DNA of 62,716 nt from Akkermansia sp. Its GTDB lineage: Bacteria; Verrucomicrobiota; Verrucomicrobiia; Verrucomicrobiales; Akkermansiaceae. Numbering within the stretch: the first letter of the stretch is position 1; each line of letters starts with the position of its first letter. The notes beneath the pieces are model-generated. The model had not been told where the DNA came from, ran no database searches, and was given only the letters and a program-made list of their open reading frames with translations. Where the stretch lies: positions 1 through 62,716 of the forward strand of contig JAFYWX010000038.1 in NCBI GenBank assembly GCA_017546445.1, in the 5' to 3' direction. The translations under genes and the position numbers were made by a program. Below, piece by piece: positions 4,604-62,716 of the stretch.

Positions 4604-4937
4604 CAAATGGCGATTTGGCGGGCTGATGGCTCGCGCAAGCGAGCGGAACATTGAGCCCGTGAAACGGGCGACATAACAATAGCGAGGCGGTGGAGCGCAC
4701 CGTGCGTCAGCATGGTGCGCGTAACCCCTCGTAAAGCAAAATAAGGAATAGGAACCCGTGGAACGGGTGACAGAGAGGGTTGCTACATATGCGCCTTAAT
4801 TTCAATATAGATTCCGATTTGGCGGGGGCTGAAATCAATCGGAGCACGGGACTTCAGTCCCGAAAACTCAAGCGATGAGGGACTAAAGTCCCTTGCTCCG
4901 ACAAAAACAGTTGCCCGATAGACTCCAATTTGGCGGG
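4604..4937 (+). repeat. Modular hairpin element, copy A
   Basis: Begins with GCAAATGGCGATTTGGCGGG. Hairpins: GCTCGCgcaaGCGAGC (4629-4644), GCCCGTgaaACGGGC (4655-4669), a long stem with GCGCACC/GGTGCGC arms (4695-4720), and ACCCGTggaACGGGT (about 4754-4768). The delimiter ATTTGGCGGG recurs near 4817 and 4928 and splits the element into modules. The first module matches, in inverse orientation, the right arm of the element at 24984-25513; the second is the cloverleaf-like module. No terminal repeat is seen, so this looks like a fragment or composite. Together with 4941-5060 it fills the gap before the AEC permease. Confidence 0.75.
4840..4900 (+). repeat. 61-bp cloverleaf-like module, copy 1
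   Basis: Outer stem CGGAGCA (4840-4846) / TGCTCCG (4894-4900) encloses two hairpins, GGGACttcaGTCCC and GGGACtaaaGTCCC, separated by a 17-nt linker. The same 61 bases recur at 60211-60271. Confidence 0.75.
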
Positions 4938-4945
4938 CTGCATGG

Positions 4946-24983: not shown

Positions 24984-25513
24984 CACATGTGTCCCAAAGA
25001 TTGCTGCGCCAAATGGGAGTTTGTCGGGCAGCTGGCTCGCGTCAGCGAGCGGAACTTAGAGCCCGTGAAACGGGCGACATAACAATAGCGAGTGGTGCAG
25101 CGGCGTCAGCCGCGAAACCACTCGTTTTAGCGTAAAAAGTTATTAGAACCCGTGAAACGGGTGACAGAAACGCGTGGCTTAAAAATCGTGTCAGGACGAA
25201 CAAATAGCTATTCTTTCACAGAGAATTTATATTGAAATTAAGGCGCATATGTAGCAACCCTCTCTGTCACCCGTTCCACGGGTTCCTATTCCTTATTTTT
25301 TTTCTTTACGAGGGGTTCCGCGCACCATGCTGACGCACGGTGCGCTCCACCGCCTCGCTATTGATAGGCCGCCCGTTTCACGGGCTTTTGAATTCCGCTC
25401 GCTTGCGCGAGCCATCAGCCCCACAAATCGCCATCTTTAGCGGATAAAGAGAGAGCAGGCTCCAAGACGGTGTTGATTATGCAGTCAATTGTGAAATCTT
25501 TGGGTCACATGTG
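24984..25513. mobile_element. 530-bp MITE-like element with TIRs and 9-bp target duplication
   Basis: Terminal inverted repeats CACATGTGTCCCAAAGATT (24984-25002) and its mirror (25495-25513) match at 18 of 19 positions. The element is bounded exactly by TGCTAAAAT on both sides (24975-24983 and 25514-25522), a 9-bp direct repeat expected from transposition. Inside, two long inverted arms (about 25035-25175 and 25255-25420) each carry hairpins: GCTCGCgtcaGCGAGC, GCCCGTgaaACGGGC, a longer nested stem (25089-25124, partner 25309-25357) and ACCCGTgaaACGGGT or its variant. No coding sequence is present; a transposase would act in trans. This fills almost the whole dus to Ldt gap. Confidence 0.8.
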
Positions 25514-50086: not shown

Positions 50087-50962
50087 TCAATGTTTAGGCG
50101 CCCGTTGCATAGGTGAGGGTTGAACCCGCTGCGTATGCACAATGGAATCGGCCATGTTGCGCACGGTTTCCTCCAGTATGTTGCAGAGGTGGCTGCCGGC
50201 GCGGAAATCTGCCGGGGCAAAGAAATCCACCCGGTGCTGGGTTGATTTCAGTGCGTAGCACTTCTGGAAACTGCGGCGCGATTCATCATCCGGGTTGTAC
50301 ACGGCCACACTCAGGCCACCCTGCTGGCGCATCACGGTGAAACAGGGCACATCTGTGGGGCCGTCGCCAATATAAATCATGTGCTCAAAGGGAATGGGGC
50401 GCAAATCGCTGTCCATGTGGTCGTTCACATCCTCCATGTAGTTGAGCATCCCCTTGTTGATGCGGAAGAGATACTGCGTCTTGCTGGTGTGGGAAATCAC
50501 CCGCTTCGGGAAGCTGATGCGGCCGTCCTGCTCGCTGAATTCGCAGCCGAATACCTCCCGCATGTAGGGGCGGATGATGGAGCCGTCCAGAATGCTCTTG
50601 ATACCGCTGGAAATGATGTAGAACTCCACCCGCACCCCGGCATACCGGTGTTCCTGGGTCAGTGCCCGTTCCTCGAATTTCTGGAAGAACTCCGGTATGC
50701 CCTTGTAGTAAGTAAGCTTCTTGCCAAGCTCGCGCAGGTGCTCATTGCTCACGCCGTCCAGACTCAGGGTGTCCAGAATCTCCTTCAGGTAGCTCAACTC
50801 GCCATCCCAGCCCTCTTCCTTGCTGCGTTCGTTGCACTTTCGCCAGAATTGCTCGGCGTCGATGCCATATTCCGGAAACAGGGTGTCCTCCTGCATATTG
50901 CGGGGACTCAGGGTCTGGTCAAAGTCGAAAATAAGCGCGATAGTATTCTGCGGAACTGCCAT
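50087..50962 (-). CDS. HAD-superfamily hydrolase
   Basis: 291 residues. HAD motif I is DFDQTL with Asp13 and Asp15; motif II region is [13 protein letters not shown]; motif III/IV is [13 protein letters not shown]. The helical cap (about 25-105) makes it a C1-cap member similar to phosphoserine-phosphatase-like proteins. Substrate unknown. An extra basic stretch precedes a C-terminus rich in Pro/Gln. It is monocistronic with its own promoter. Confidence 0.88.
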
Positions 50963-51095: not shown

Positions 51096-54000
51096 TCAAC
51101 GGTCTTCTTCTTCCCGGTATTCACCCCCTGCAGCCTGCAGAAGTTTTACACACTCTGCATGACCATTCCATGCAGCATAAGAAAGAGGAGTACTGCCATT
51201 CTCTACCCCTTTGTTCACATTTATGCCGGGTGCAGCCAGCAGAAGTTTCACACACCCCGCATGGCCTTTCCCTGCAGCAAAAGAAAGCGGAGTAATGCCA
51301 TTCTCCTCCCCTTTGTTCACATCTATACCGGGAGCTGCCAGCAGTAACTTCACACACACCGCATGGTCATTATATGCAGCCTCAATAAGCGGCGTTTCAC
51401 CCTTCGCATTCGCCTGATTCACATCTATGCCGGGCGCCGACAGCAGTTGCTTCACACACTCTGCATGACCGATCATTGCAGCAACCAGAAGCGGAGTGTT
51501 GCCATTCTCTGCCCCTTTGTTCACATCTATACCGGGAGCAGCCAGCAGAAGCTTCACATACGCCACATGGCCTTTCCAGGCAGCATGGAAAAGCGGCGTA
51601 GCGCCATACTTATTCGCCTTGTTCACATCTATACCGGGAGCAGCCAGCAGGAGTTTCACACACTCCGCATGGCCTTTTCCTACAGCCATGAAGAGCGGTG
51701 TTTCGCCCTCCGCATCCGCTTTGTTCACATCTATACCGGGAGCAGCCAGCAGGAGTTTCACACACTCCGCATGGCCTTTTCCTACAGCCTTGAAGAGCGG
51801 TGTTTCGCCCTCCGCATCCGCTTTGTTCACATCTATGCCAGGAACCTCCAGCAGAGCCCCCACAGACTTCGAATTGCCATCACATGCAGCATGGTGCAGC
51901 TTAGTCCACCCATCAGCATCCTCCTGATTCACATCTATGCCAGAAGCTGCCAGCAGAAGGCTTATGCACTCTTTAGAGCCGTGCAGCATAGCCATACGAA
52001 GCGGCGTGTAGCTGCTCCCCACTTTTTCTACCTCTATTCCAGGAGCTGCCAGCAGAAGTTTCACACACTCCGCATGGCCCTTCCATGCAGCAAACAGAAG
52101 CGGCGTTGTGACGGACTTAGACGCTTTGTTCACCTCTATACCGGGAGCAGCCAGCAGAAGTTTCACACACCCCGCATGCCCATTCGCAGCAGCCTTGATG
52201 AGCGGTGTTTTGCCCTCCGCATCTGCCATATTCACCTCTATACCGGGAGCAGCCAGCAGATGACTCACACACTCCGCATGGCCATTCGCAGCAGCCTTGA
52301 TGAGCGGTGTTTTACCCTCCGCATCTGCCATATTCACCTCTATACCGGGAGCAGCCAGCAGAAGTTTCACACTCCCCGCATGCCCATTCGCAGCAGCCTT
52401 GATGAGCGGTGTTTCTCCCTCCGCATCTGCCATATTCACCTCTATGCCGGGAGCCGCCAGCAGATGACTCACACACTCCGCATGACCTTTACCTGCAGCC
52501 TTGATGAGCGGCGTTTCGCCCGCTGCATCCGCCTGGTTCACCTCTATACCGGGAGCCCCCAGCAGGAGTTTCACACATTCCGCATAGTCATTATATACAG
52601 CCTTGATGAGCGGCGTTTCACCCTTATCATCCGCCCGGTTCGCCTCTATGCCGGGCGCCGACAGCAAAAGCTGAACGCACACTTCATAACCCGCAGATGC
52701 AGCCGTCATGAGCGAAGTTATACCCTTTTCCGTCGCCTTGTTCACCTCTATGCCGGGAATCGCCAGCAGATGATTCACACACTCCGCAAGGCCTCTACCT
52801 GCAGCCTTGATGAGCGGCGTTTCGCCCGCCGCATTCGCCTTGTGCACATCTATGCCGGGAATCGCCAGCAGATGATTCACACACTCCGCATGGCCTCTAC
52901 CTGCAGCCTTGAAGAGCGGCGTTTCGCCCGCCGCATTCGCCTTGTTCACATCTATACCGGGTGCCCCCAGCAGAAGCTTCACACACTCCACATGACCATA
53001 CTCAGCAGCCTTGAAGAGCGGCGTTTCGCCCGCCGCATTCGCCTTGTTCACATCTATACCGGGTGCCCCCAGCAGAAGCTTCATACACTTCACATTACCA
53101 TACTCAGCAGCCTTGAAGAGCGGCGTTTCGCCCGCCGCATTCGCCTTGTTCACCTCTATGCCGGGTGCCCCCAGCAGAAGCTTCACACACTCTGCATGAC
53201 CATCCTCAGCAGCCTCGATGAGCGGCGTTTCACCCTCCGCATTCGCCTTGTTCACCTCTATGCCGGGTGCCCCCAGCAGAAGCTTCACACACTCTGCATG
53301 ACCGTTCATTGCAGCAATCAGAAGCGGCGTTTGGCCATAATCATCCGCCTTGTTCACCTCTATGCCGGGAGCAGCCAGCAGAAGCCTCACACATTCCACG
53401 TGACCATCATCAGCAGCCTTGGTGAGCGGCGTTTCGCCCGCTGCATCTGCCATATTCACATCTATACCGGGAGCCGCCAGCAGAAGCTTCACACACTCCG
53501 CATGGCCTTTTTCTACAGCCTTGGAGAGCGGCGTTCTACCCTTCGCAGTCGCCTGATTCACATCTATGCCGGGTGCAGCCAGCAGAAGTTTCACACACCC
53601 CGCATAACCATTCCATGCAGCAAAAGAAAGCGGAGTAAAGCCATTCTCCTCCCCTTTGTTCACATCTATACCGGGAGCTGCCAGCAGTAACTTCACACAC
53701 TCCACGTGGTCATTATATGCAGCCTCAATAAGCGGCGTTCCACCCTTCGAATCCTCCTGATTCACCTCTATGCCAGGAGCCGCCAGCAGAAGCTTCACAC
53801 ACGCTGCATGACCGTTCATTGCAGCAACCAGAAGCGGAGTTTTTCCGCTCTTCGGCACGCGGTTCACCTCTATGCCGGGAGCCGCCAGCAGAAGCTTCAA
53901 ACACTCCACCTGGCCTTCCCAGGCAACATGGAAAAGCGGCGTTTCACCATGCTTATTCGCCTTATTCACCTCTATGCCGGGAGCTGCCAGCAGAAGTTTC

Positions 54001-55574
54001 ATACACTCCACATGGCCTTTATCAGCAGCCTTGATGAGCGGCGTAGCGCCATGCTTATTCGCCTTATTCACGTCTATGCCGGGAGCCGCCAGCAGAAGTT
54101 TCACACACTCCGCACGGTTAAAATAGGAAGCATAGAAAAGCGGCGTAGCGCCATGCTTATTCGCCTTATTCACGTCTATGCCGGGAGCCGCCAGCAGAAG
54201 CTTCATACACTCCACTTGGACTCCCCAGGCAACATAGAAAAGCGGCGTTTCACCCTCCTCATCCGCCTTATTCACGTCTATGCCGGGAGCCGCCAGCAGA
54301 AGCTTCAAACACTCCACATTACGGTTACCTCCAGCAGCCTTGAAGAGCGGCGTTACGCCATAATCACCCGCCTTATTCACGTCTATGCCGGGAGCCGCCA
54401 GCAGAAGTTTCATACACTCCACATGGCCTTTATCAGCAGCCTTGATGAGCGGCGTTGCGCCATAATCATCCGCCTTATTCACGTCTATGCCGGGAGCCGC
54501 CAGCAGAACCTTCACACAATCCACATTACCTTCACCTACAGCAACCTGAAGTGGCGTTTCACCCTCATCATCCGCCTGATTCACATCTATGCCGGGAAGT
54601 TCCAGCAGTAACTTCATATACTCCGCGGGATTCTCTTCTGCTGCTCTTTGCAGCATAGTCCTCCCATCGTCCTCAGCCGGGCTCACATCCATACCCAGAG
54701 CCTGCAGCAGAAGATGAACGCACTCCGCATGACCCTTGCCTACAGCAATCAGAAGCGGAGCCATTCCGTTCTTTATCACCTTGTTCACATCTATACCGGG
54801 TGCCCCCAGCAGAAGCTTCACACACTCTGCATGACCACTCCAGGCTGCATAGTAAAGCGGAGTCCATGGTGCCGGAAACTCTTTATTATTCAAATCGATG
54901 CCGGGAGCCGCCAGCAGGAGCTTCACACACTCCACATGGCCTTTCAACGCAGCCTCTACGAGCGGCGTTGTGCCGAACACTGACGGCTTGTTCACCTCTA
55001 TGCCGGGAGCTGCCAGCAGTAACTTCACACACTCCGCATGGCCCTTTTCCACAGCCCTGTAAAGCGAAGTCCGGCCATCCCAATCCACAACATTCAAATC
55101 GATGCCGGGAGCAGCCAGCAGGAGCTTCACACACTCCACATGGTTCTTTTCTACAGCATCCATAAGCGGAGAGTCTTGCCCATCCTCATGGTTCACCTTT
55201 ATACCGGGCTCCGCCAGCAGCAGCTTCATACACTCCGCCTGGCCTTCCCATGCGGCACGCCGGAGCGGCGTTATGCCAATCGTGTCGTTTATCTCTATGC
55301 CGGGCACCGCCAGCAGAAGCTTCACGCACTCCGCATGGCCTTTTTCTACAGCCTTGAAGAGCGGAGTTTCGCCGTTCTCATCCGCCTGATTCACCTCTAT
55401 GCCGGGCACCGCCAGCAGGTGTTTGAGTTGCTGTATATCCCCCTTTTTCGCAGCCTCAGCAAGCTCTGCCGTTAATTTTTCTGACTCCTCCTCTGACAGC
55501 TGGGGAAGCAGGTTGGTGTGGCTGACCTGAGGATTACTGGTGCCGGATTCGGAGTCTATGTGATGACTGCTCAT
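51096..55574 (-). CDS. Giant ankyrin-repeat protein, 42 repeats
   Basis: 1492 residues. A 50-residue polar N-terminus (SSHHIDSESGTSNPQVSHT onwards) has no signal peptide. By eye I count 42 consecutive ankyrin units of 33-35 residues (102 bp), consensus LLAAPGIDVNKADAEGETPL followed by FKAAGKGHAECVKL, then a short acidic tail (GGEYREEEDR). Units 22-26, 30-32 and 36-37 are nearly identical within each block, and units 16-18 resemble 39-41, so arrays grew by unequal recombination. No enzyme domain. It should form a long solenoid that binds proteins. Secretion is not evident; if exported it would need a non-Sec route. Repeat identity makes assembly errors in copy number possible. Confidence 0.92.
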   Translation of the reverse strand: MSSHHIDSESGTSNPQVSHTNLLPQLSEEESEKLTAELAEAAKKGDIQQLKHLLAVPGIEVNQADENGETPLFKAVEKGHAECVKLLLAVPGIEINDTIGITPLRRAAWEGQAECMKLLLAEPGIKVNHEDGQDSPLMDAVEKNHVECVKLLLAAPGIDLNVVDWDGRTSLYRAVEKGHAECVKLLLAAPGIEVNKPSVFGTTPLVEAALKGHVECVKLLLAAPGIDLNNKEFPAPWTPLYYAAWSGHAECVKLLLGAPGIDVNKVIKNGMAPLLIAVGKGHAECVHLLLQALGMDVSPAEDDGRTMLQRAAEENPAEYMKLLLELPGIDVNQADDEGETPLQVAVGEGNVDCVKVLLAAPGIDVNKADDYGATPLIKAADKGHVECMKLLLAAPGIDVNKAGDYGVTPLFKAAGGNRNVECLKLLLAAPGIDVNKADEEGETPLFYVAWGVQVECMKLLLAAPGIDVNKANKHGATPLFYASYFNRAECVKLLLAAPGIDVNKANKHGATPLIKAADKGHVECMKLLLAAPGIEVNKANKHGETPLFHVAWEGQVECLKLLLAAPGIEVNRVPKSGKTPLLVAAMNGHAACVKLLLAAPGIEVNQEDSKGGTPLIEAAYNDHVECVKLLLAAPGIDVNKGEENGFTPLSFAAWNGYAGCVKLLLAAPGIDVNQATAKGRTPLSKAVEKGHAECVKLLLAAPGIDVNMADAAGETPLTKAADDGHVECVRLLLAAPGIEVNKADDYGQTPLLIAAMNGHAECVKLLLGAPGIEVNKANAEGETPLIEAAEDGHAECVKLLLGAPGIEVNKANAAGETPLFKAAEYGNVKCMKLLLGAPGIDVNKANAAGETPLFKAAEYGHVECVKLLLGAPGIDVNKANAAGETPLFKAAGRGHAECVNHLLAIPGIDVHKANAAGETPLIKAAGRGLAECVNHLLAIPGIEVNKATEKGITSLMTAASAGYEVCVQLLLSAPGIEANRADDKGETPLIKAVYNDYAECVKLLLGAPGIEVNQADAAGETPLIKAAGKGHAECVSHLLAAPGIEVNMADAEGETPLIKAAANGHAGSVKLLLAAPGIEVNMADAEGKTPLIKAAANGHAECVSHLLAAPGIEVNMADAEGKTPLIKAAANGHAGCVKLLLAAPGIEVNKASKSVTTPLLFAAWKGHAECVKLLLAAPGIEVEKVGSSYTPLRMAMLHGSKECISLLLAASGIDVNQEDADGWTKLHHAACDGNSKSVGALLEVPGIDVNKADAEGETPLFKAVGKGHAECVKLLLAAPGIDVNKADAEGETPLFMAVGKGHAECVKLLLAAPGIDVNKANKYGATPLFHAAWKGHVAYVKLLLAAPGIDVNKGAENGNTPLLVAAMIGHAECVKQLLSAPGIDVNQANAKGETPLIEAAYNDHAVCVKLLLAAPGIDVNKGEENGITPLSFAAGKGHAGCVKLLLAAPGINVNKGVENGSTPLSYAAWNGHAECVKLLQAAGGEYREEEDR

Positions 55575-55690
55575 ACGAGAATAAGTGTTTCTTTCAAGGG
55601 TAACAGGTACAACAGCATGTGCTGCTACTGCATTCTACGATACCATGTAACCTTTTGAAAGCAAAAACTGCCCGCCGCTGCGTCATTTTC

Positions 55691-56136
55691 CACATGTGTC
55701 CCAAGGATTGCTGCGCTAAATGGGAGTTTAGCGAGCTGGAACAGCTCGTCGTTGCTGCGGTGTAAACGCAGCAATTTAGACCACTTTTAAGTGGATTTAG
55801 ATGCCTCGTAAGAGGCAATTTCATCTGCCAAAGGCAGATTTCGATGCAGCTCATCAAGAGCTGCAATGCAGGTGAAATAAATTCCTGCGGGCCATAGGCC
55901 CGCACTATCTCTAAACAACTTACATTGCAGGGCAGAATGCCCTGCAGTGAAATTGCGGGCAGAGGCCCGCAATGAAACCCGCCACTATCGTGACGGTCTA
56001 AATCCGGTTATCACCGGTCTAAATTGCCCGGCTTCCGCCGGGCAGTGTTTCATCCCGCTTAGCGCATAAAGAGGGGGGCTGGCTCCAAAACGGTGTTGGT
56101 AATGCAGTCAATTGTGAAATCCTTGGGACACATGTG
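55691..56136. mobile_element. 446-bp element with CACATGTG ends carrying a hairpin array
   Basis: Ends CACATGTGTCCCAAGGATTG (left) and a right end mirroring CACATGTGTCCCAAGGATTT match the TIRs of the element at 24984. The internal sequence is different: instead of the two-armed module it carries a string of mini-hairpins (see separate entry). The inner right end (GGTGTTGRTTATGCAGTCA type, R = A or G) is also shared. No 9-bp target duplication is visible, so the flanks have decayed or recombined. It fills the gap between the giant ankyrin gene and the lipoprotein gene; 55575-55690 holds no other feature I can see. Confidence 0.75.
55733..56044. repeat. Array of about 13 consecutive mini-hairpins
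   Basis: Perfect or near-perfect stems in order: GAGCTGgaaCAGCTC, TTGCTGCG/CGCAGCAA, CCACTTttaAAGTGG, TGCCTCgtaaGAGGCA, ATCTGCCaaaGGCAGAT, TGCAGCTC/GAGCTGCA, GCAGG/CCTGC, GCGGGCCataGGCCCGC, TGCAGGGC/GCCCTGCA, TTGCGGGCagagGCCCGCAA, CCGcCAC/GTGaCGG, CCGGTtatcACCGG, TGCCCGGCttccGCCGGGCA. Most are joined by A/T linkers such as AATTTAGA, ATTTAGA, AATTTC or TCTAAAT. Stem sequences differ from one another. Confidence 0.8.
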
Positions 56137-56178
56137 GCAGCAGGGTGGGCAGCAGCAGTCTTGTCCGAATAAATTACA

Positions 56179-60145: not shown

Positions 60146-60177
60146 TCTGTGCTTCAGGTAGCACCTGAAAGACCAAC

Positions 60178-60330
60178 ACAAATGGCGATTTGGCGGGGTT
60201 AGAAATCAATCGGAGCACGGGACTTCAGTCCCGAAAACTCAAGCGATGAGGGACTAAAGTCCCTTGCTCCGACAAAAAACAGTTGCTCGCCAAACTCCCA
60301 TCTGGCGCAGCAATCTTTGGGACACATGTG
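60178..60330. repeat. Truncated CACATGTG-family element with cloverleaf-like module
   Basis: The right end matches the left end of the element at 24984 in inverse orientation (GGCGCAGCAATCTTTGGGA then CACATGTG at 60323-60330). The left end begins with AAATGGCGATTTGGCGGGG and lacks the outer 70 nt and TIR. Between them lies the 61-bp cloverleaf-like module at 60211-60271, identical to 4840-4900. The stop codon of the GH16 gene is 10 nt past the element. Confidence 0.75.
60211..60271 (+). repeat. 61-bp cloverleaf-like module, copy 2
   Basis: Outer stem CGGAGCA/TGCTCCG with two inner GGGAC/GTCCC hairpins, identical in sequence to the module at 4840-4900, 55 kb away. Confidence 0.8.
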
Positions 60331-60340
60331 GTGTAGAGAA

Positions 60341-62279: not shown

Positions 62280-62288
62280 GCCAAAGTC

Positions 62289-62393
62289 CTGCCCCGCAGG
62301 GGCAGGATATCGTCCCGAAGGGATTTCGTCCTGCCGCAGGCAGGATTTCGTCCGGCGTCAGCCGGATTTCGTTCCCCGGTAGGGCGGGGCAGA
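62289..62393. repeat. Mini-hairpin array with ATTTCG linkers
   Basis: Hairpins CTGCCCCgcaGGGGCAG, TCCCgaaGGGA, TCCTGCCgcaGGCAGGA and TCCGGCgtcaGCCGGA are joined by TTTCG-type linkers (first linker GATATCG). A final GGGGCAG can also pair with the first CTGCCCC, closing the array into one multibranched structure. A GTTTTTT run follows on the plus strand. It lies directly upstream of the aldo/keto reductase promoter. Confidence 0.75.
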
Positions 62394-62423
62394 GTTTTTT
62401 CAATCATTGGGAAAAGGGGCAAT

Positions 62424-62716
62424 GACGATTTGGCGGGAATGATGGCGAGCCATAGGCTCGCGGAATTCAGAAGCCCGTGAAACGGGCGGCCTATCAATAG
62501 CGAGGCGGTTACGCGCACCGTGCGTCAGCATGGTGCGCGTAACCCCTCGTAAGGAAAAATAAGGAATAGGAACCCGTGGAACGGGTGACAGAAACGCGTG
62601 GCTTAAAATCGTGACAGGGCGAACAAATAACGACTATGTAGCCCCCCCTCACTGTCACCCGGTCCACGGGTTCCTATTCCTTATTTTTCCTTACGAGGGG
62701 TTACGCGCACCATGCA
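62424..62716. repeat. Modular hairpin element, copy D (cut by the window end)
   Basis: Begins with GACGATTTGGCGGG. Hairpins: GCGAGCCataGGCTCGC, GCCCGTgaaACGGGC, a long stem CGAGG.GGTTACGCGCACC/GGTGCGCGTAACC.CTCG (62501-62549) and ACCCGTggaACGGGT. After a centre near 62605-62645 the second arm begins in inverse orientation and runs off the window. It has the same two-armed order as the element at 24984, with different stem sequences. Confidence 0.75.

Follow-up and report, generated by a model that had tools for sequence, protein, structure and literature searches.

A hairpin string in an Akkermansia genome resembles the mirrored arms flanking a Y1 transposase gene

The window (the whole stretch of DNA analysed here, 62,716 nucleotides of Akkermansia sp.) contains at 55733-56044 a 312-bp string of short and mutually different hairpins, which raises the question of what such a string is and what keeps so many unlike stems paired. 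A strict search (perfect stem of at least 5, loop of 3-8, at least 3 G/C per arm) detected 11 perfect hairpins, covering 202 of the 312 bases, whereas 300 dinucleotide shuffles of the same 312 bp averaged 0.93 and never exceeded 4. When 1201 segments of 312 bp along the 62.7-kb window were ranked by hairpin density (median 1), the top four overlapped 55733-56044. A twelfth hairpin (CCGCCACTATCGTGACGG, 55979-55996) is imperfect, with one G-T pair, and is present in the minus-strand DNA fold; the preliminary description had counted about 13 mini-hairpins, which comes close. Both strands fold as DNA far better than shuffled sequences (z-scores of -14.3 for the plus strand and -12.4 for the minus strand). 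The string is composed of two mirrored arms, five hairpins each, around one middle hairpin; the linkers are ATTTAGA/ATTTCGA-like in the left half, and the right half has their reverse complements. Linkers of the window copy are 53% alike by an ungapped measure, compared to 86-100% in some relatives. The features of the string, together with a second array at the end of the window, are:

55733..55747, plus strand: boundary hairpin GAGCTGGAACAGCTC
55752..55865, plus strand: left arm, five hairpin slots (55752-55774, 55781-55794, 55802-55817, 55823-55839, 55845-55865) with the linkers TTTAGA / ATTTAGA / ATTTC / TTCGA; aligned with arms flanking tnpA
55886..55904, plus strand: middle hairpin between the arms
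55926..56044, minus strand: right arm (mirror), five slots (55926-55946, 55952-55973, 55979-55996 (imperfect), 56004-56017, 56025-56044)
62287..62716, plus strand: second hairpin array, its linkers TTTCGT-like; proximal-type hairpins come next, and the window end truncates the feature

Across nine distinct runs of at least four hairpins, the linkers are 45-100% alike and the stems 26-47%, so that recurring linkers alternate with unique palindromes; at locus L141, for instance, the linker ATTTCAC occurs three times. A CRISPR array was rejected, its constant unit here being only about 7 nt and its variable units palindromes, and so was simple tandem duplication, the stems being just 26-47% alike. 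The preliminary description had excluded both, correctly, but its further statement that nothing constant alternates with the hairpins does not stand: near-constant linkers recur between the unique hairpins.

A DNA search with the array matched 6/76 genomes of the genus: the window's own genome and G042 closely, and G019, G020, G027 and G034 as diverged copies (E-values from 9e-9 to 2e-5, the G020 matches being 32 bases long). In G027 the arrays lie in mirror orientation on both sides of a gene encoding a Y1 transposase (TnpA), and in G034 (L137) they likewise flank tnpA in mirror orientation. Slot by slot, the window array resembles these arms, a likeness that the preliminary description had overlooked. 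All 11 arms examined, drawn from four genomes and counting each half of the window array as an arm, fall into five slots when split at the linkers. Pairing is almost absent from slot 2 of two G019 arms, and slot 5 of the G034 right arm is broken, though it lies beside an open tnpA frame; the per-slot test is biased towards pairing, as every hairpin is first cut back to the best palindrome within it. In the alignment of these distal arms (8/11 arms, the other three having been located later) stems change and linkers hardly vary. In slots 2, 3 and 5, those counted, 99.1% of the cells are paired; 14 cells are double-changed, compared to 3.5 in shuffled alignments and at most 2 when slid, and the number of further pair types was reached by 33/500 shuffles. 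The earlier proposal that something must preserve the perfect palindromes is therefore supported between species, stems changing on both sides while linkers stay.

The G027 TnpA has 149 aa and matches Pfam Y1_Tnp with 68.8 bits (68.1 and 68.8 bits for the relatives' TnpA), and the array element itself contains no such gene. The match of TnpA to the solved ISDra2 TnpA is weak (E 4e-4), and scores against the NCBIfam IS200 model (39.5 and 46.4 bits) are below the 55-bit cut-off. At 52 fetched loci the HUH motif and catalytic tyrosine were present in 52/52, WQ in 51/52 and exact Y...Q..HH in 49/52; judged by this Y...Q..HH and WQ motif signature, TnpA would belong to TnpA-Y1 subclass 1.2, which in PMC6006769 shares the DH[IV]H, WQ and Y...Q..HH motifs and a length of about 149 aa. 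The same source describes this subclass as generally without terminal IS200 structures, with REP given as "no", and as occurring mostly in Cyanobacteria and Bacteroidetes; in contrast to this description, most of the Verrucomicrobiales loci examined here have mirrored hairpin arms. Relatives of TnpA were found in 30/76 genomes of the genus and in 165/288 genomes drawn from the order; viral contigs gave 0 pattern matches and no relative by protein, and phages one 26% match only.

The flanks of tnpA are mirrored beyond all 100 shuffles at 26/29 Akkermansia loci and 17/19 other Verrucomicrobiales loci, and the same test on outer flanks of such loci gave 0/19 and 1/19 (the genus control used the 19/30 loci of at least 3000 bases). 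The loci failing were L133, L139 and L150 in the genus and L170 and L171 in the order; L134 (short flank) and L163 (contig end) were left out. Of three Bacteroidota plasmid loci, two (L187, L188) also passed and one, the Bernardetia locus L198, failed, 23/100 shuffles being as good. The number of hairpins exceeded all 40 shuffles at 26/29 genus loci, and at only 9/19 order loci. The tnpA of the window's own genome (L133) has one recognisable arm, and 6/100 shuffles were as good in the mirror test.

Three further hairpins adjoin tnpA and form the proximal arm. A pattern asking for paired outer hairpins recognised 30/60 proximal arms, and 24 of these 30 (all except L134_3, L140_5, L140_3, L142_3, L145_3 and L158_3) were aligned together with one arm from the window. 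The middle stem, which played no part in the selection of the arms, pairs in 98% of the cells of these 25 aligned arms; 41 cells are double-changed, compared to 13.2 when shuffled and 1-7 when slid, and 6 pairs show a double change, a number reached by 44/500 shuffles. The tetranucleotide NTAG stands directly before the middle stem in 22/25 proximal arms (GTAG in 8), at the place that in published descriptions belongs to the REP tetranucleotide or the IS200 guide (PMC6006769, PMC8266576). The 530-bp element of the window resembles a pair of proximal arms without tnpA.

Slot order, linkers, mirror symmetry, covarying stems, the spread of copies and the placement in an element with terminal inverted repeats (TIR) are the observations to be explained. 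On these sequence comparisons we hold it probable that the array matches the mirrored five-hairpin arms flanking tnpA, as a likely tnpA-less derivative whose hairpins the transposase is predicted to recognise by their shape and a near-constant linker; the array is likely a tnpA-less hairpin-arm module inside a second, TIR-type miniature element. Recognition of linker and hairpin shape, mobilisation in trans and a role as DNA are what we infer. Arms and tnpA together would constitute a Y1 element, and every hairpin plus its linker (in the arrays), or plus the NTAG at its foot (in the proximal arms), would be a TnpA site when the DNA is single-stranded, a model built by analogy with IS200/IS605 and REP systems. 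Stems read by shape could diverge freely while remaining paired, and many different perfect palindromes between fixed linkers would be found because stem sequence would matter little. The array element would consist of arms joined without tnpA and nested in the TIR element, and would spread in trans by TnpA or as a passenger of the TIR element, either enzyme being presumed; framed copies may move only by the TIR transposase. According to PMC8266576, exchanging the upper stem or the loop of the substrate did not prevent an Escherichia coli TnpA-REP from binding and cutting it. For a second group of TnpA-REP the same source reports harm from a change in the loop, so that shape reading is offered as a model, not as a result.

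Among the literature matches listed, judged by title and the start of the abstract, none dealt with hairpin arrays around Akkermansia transposases; several known systems share parts of the arrangement. IS200/IS605-like Y1 elements share, at the tnpA loci, a TnpA with HUH motif and tyrosine and hairpins on both flanks. REP/REPIN systems share inverted hairpin pairs, the REPIN organisation. They also share, as described with their RAYT in PMC6006769 and PMC8266576, a hairpin with a fixed foot tetranucleotide and many copies without tnpA; they differ in that here NTAG is not strictly GTAG, the arms are long and multi-hairpin, the TnpA is of another class and the linkers of the window array are ATTT-type. 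TIRtrons (TIRYT) are characterised in PMC3733652 by a tyrosine transposase gene between inverted repeats, some of them self-complementary, and by dispersed repeat copies in some genomes, and their motif GGGGWSAS also occurs here (for example GGGGTGAC at the foot of an L141 proximal hairpin). In contrast to TIRtrons, whose enzymes are RAYT-like in that source, the present elements have hairpin arrays with recurring linkers and a Y...Q..HH enzyme. The PATEs of Haloquadratum are described as transposase-less IS605-type derivatives keeping just their palindromic ends, that is, near-terminal palindromes (PMC3119063), whereas a distal arm here has five hairpins and, in other copies, a proximal arm has three. 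The array is a real, ordered structure and, in our reading, a variant of Y1/TIRtron-type elements.

The array is enclosed in a frame, whose features, with those of the related 530-bp element, are:

55690..56137: the CACATGTG-ended miniature element as a whole, bounded by perfect terminal inverted repeats of 20 bp
55690..55709, plus strand: left terminal inverted repeat CCACATGTGTCCCAAGGATT, 100% complementary to the right repeat
56118..56137, minus strand: right terminal inverted repeat
55713..55733, plus strand: left inner end, a CAAATGGGAGTTTG-type palindrome of a kind also found outside the frame
24984..25513, plus strand: 530-bp element with the same kind of ends; its cargo resembles a mirrored pair of tnpA-proximal arms

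A transposon-like frame had been proposed in the preliminary description, and the perfect 20-bp inverted repeat bounding the array element confirms it. The ends of the 530-bp element, which is flanked by the repeat TGCTAAAAT, differ from those of the array element by one and two mismatches, and CACATGTGTCCCAAAGATT-like ends (up to 3 mismatches) number 126 in the 2.62-Mb assembly. At 21/30 end-to-end elements in the fetched stretches the flanks repeat each other over 8 bp exactly or over 9 bp with no more than one mismatch, compared to a mean of 0.11 for mismatched flanks, and the frame therefore behaves like a classical TIR element; the copy at 55690-56137 itself shows no target duplication. 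No gene-sized pair of CACATGTG ends that could hold a transposase was seen by eye among the matches listed in this fragmented assembly. The right end of the frame was also found in two genome records of Akkermansia sp., from yak and water buffalo.

That the same ends carry alternative hairpin cargoes, as had been suggested, proved correct: CACATGTG-type ends enclose the hairpin array, the 530-bp cargo or a stretch of about 110 bp that contains two small hairpins, and two further cargo elements measure 484 and 424 bp in total, one end of the 424-bp element being degenerate. Inversion of units, which the preliminary description had proposed to look for, was detected for whole cargoes inside the frame: L191 compared with L189 (86% reversed, 75% direct) and L041 compared with the 530-bp copy of the window (91% reversed, 75% direct). 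The inner module is also present without the CACATGTG frame; the base following its right end, a boundary of uncertain position, is G at 19/20 places, the search pattern itself having ended in that G. Other arrangements were observed: a variant of the frame, of the CACACGTG type, whose proximal-arm cargo is a different one (L189, L190, L191; the cargo inverted in L191); a different outer sequence (GCTTCTAATAAG ... TTTTTAGAAG) around the same inner module (L093, L094, L100, L101; clearest at L094 and L101); at 4604-4945 of the window, the GGGACTTCAGTCCC cargo immediately after one half of a 530-type cargo, the inner ends being alike in kind, which is a tandem or recombinant module; and at 60170-60331 of the window, a minus-strand element end without the right frame arm, a truncated or recombined copy.

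A second Y1 gene was observed in the window's own genome (L108, C27, 1003-1956, minus strand, 317 aa), its nearest NCBIfam model being the REP-associated tyrosine transposase, below cut-off. Hairpins of the GGGACTTCAGTCCC type lie beside or within this gene and resemble those in the frame elements of 217-234 bp, whose cargo is ~110 bp long. That cargo may be the REPIN of the L108 gene, and the L108 gene may instead be the mover of the array.

The families Gut-1 and Acido-Lenti-1 are catalogued as small RNAs, and arms and arrays of relatives score above their curated cut-offs: Gut-1 (RF01706) five times at L141, on both sides of tnpA, and also at L116, L121 and L123; Acido-Lenti-1 (RF01687) at L137, L116 and six order loci. 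Within the window, the only known RNAs at curated Rfam cut-offs are two tRNAs; the array reached 26.1 bits against Gut-1 (cut-off 50; E 0.0074 over 601 bases), hence below the cut-off, and is absent from the listing of the whole-window scan. A permissive scan of the G027 element placed Acido-Lenti-1 on the proximal hairpins and Gut-1 on the distal array, both below cut-off. In the locus scan, which left out L134, Acido-Lenti-1 (E up to 0.05) was found at 6/29 genus and 9/20 order tnpA loci and Gut-1 at 3/29 genus loci, most loci having no Rfam match. Six order loci carry Acido-Lenti-1 on both sides of tnpA in opposite orientation, pointing outwards; the L176 match does not point outwards. A scan of the genus detected Acido-Lenti-1 in 31/76 genomes, with up to 33 matches in one. 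Acido-Lenti-1 and TnpA occur together in 25 of the 76 genomes, Acido-Lenti-1 only in 6, TnpA only in 5 and neither in 40 (Fisher p 1e-9, relatedness not corrected).

These matches raise the alternative that the array is a structured non-coding RNA like its Rfam relatives, its covariation resulting from RNA selection and its transposase neighbourhood being incidental. The 2010 source calls both families likely RNAs, with Gut-1 coming from human gut only (PMC2864571), relatives exceed both curated cut-offs, and covariation alone cannot separate RNA from DNA. We nevertheless regard this alternative as unlikely, since there are mirror copies on both sides of tnpA and Acido-Lenti-1 is oppositely oriented at the six order loci, both strands of the array fold about equally well, and Acido-Lenti-1 co-occurs with TnpA (both in 25/76 genomes, neither in 40, only one in 11). 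A 2026 paper states that little is known of Acido-Lenti-1 (PMC13298647), which is also named in PMC10059132; among the literature matches listed, none was found with the phrase "Gut-1 RNA". Extending the transposon reading to the families themselves, we see evenly balanced chances that Gut-1 and Acido-Lenti-1, rather than being RNAs, represent the end arms, as single-stranded DNA, of a single transposon superfamily, which would be moved by TnpA-Y1 subclass 1.2, an enzyme that would read linker plus hairpin shape and thereby leave a rapidly diversifying library of perfect palindromes separated by fixed linkers.

Copies within species give another view of the stems. A query with the element and its flanks matched at least 49 places in the own genome; among the matches listed, 27 include part of the array and 22 frame ends only. 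Many matches in this assembly begin or stop at contig ends, which makes copy numbers uncertain. Alignment of 31 whole or partial copies (27 from the own genome and 4 from G042; some partial copies at contig ends might be the two halves of a single copy) gave changes against the consensus at 28/3311 stem bases, 26/916 loop bases and 52/2453 linker bases. Among the 28 stem changes, 18 break a pair, 10 give G-T and 0 are compensated; variable sites amount to 16/160 in stems compared to 31/170 elsewhere (p = 0.04), and among A/T sites the two do not differ. Individual copies are therefore drifting, and their stems are protected mildly at most. Drift with loss of pairing had been named in the preliminary description as evidence against its reading, and this applies in part: stems vary less than the other bases (28/3311 compared to 78/3369), but 0/28 changes are compensated. 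The one-armed tnpA of the own genome and these near-identical copies, in which 18/28 stem changes break pairs, count against the transposon reading.

No element match was found beside the matching gene in G042, where an empty site was sought and only the right-flank gene matched, with no clean empty site. The gene next to this right-flank gene in G042 reads like the gene at 50087-50962 of the window, which suggests that G042 lacks, at this place, the stretch containing the ankyrin gene and the element. The ankyrin gene (51096-55574, minus strand), which encodes a 1492-aa ankyrin-repeat-like protein, adjoins the array; its pre-start sequence and the array recur at 99% in C40 (L009), with a different right end.

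Replication template switching at imperfect palindromes could also make and keep perfect stems, without recognition or selection; it has been reported to create and maintain RNA hairpins (PMC8794818), and the somewhat lower variation of the stems among copies agrees with it. We think it improbable nonetheless as the explanation here, since 0/28 stem changes in the 31 copies are compensated, broken slots persist, and the recurring linkers, the five slots per arm and the tie to tnpA would be left unexplained. Serial insertion of unrelated mini-elements into a MITE, to which the differing stem sequences and the nested or modular elements of the genome might point, was rejected as very improbable, the five-slot register being fixed, with the same register and linkers in 11/11 arms from four genomes, and the halves being mirrored.

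With the array read as a tnpA-less module of transposase-flanking arms, a transposase subclass said generally to lack a DNA substrate would gain one, and the natural library of variable hairpins between fixed linkers makes shape reading as opposed to sequence reading by HUH enzymes testable. If Gut-1 and Acido-Lenti-1 are indeed such arms, two orphan RNA families found by covariation would be reinterpreted, and strong covariation need not mean RNA.
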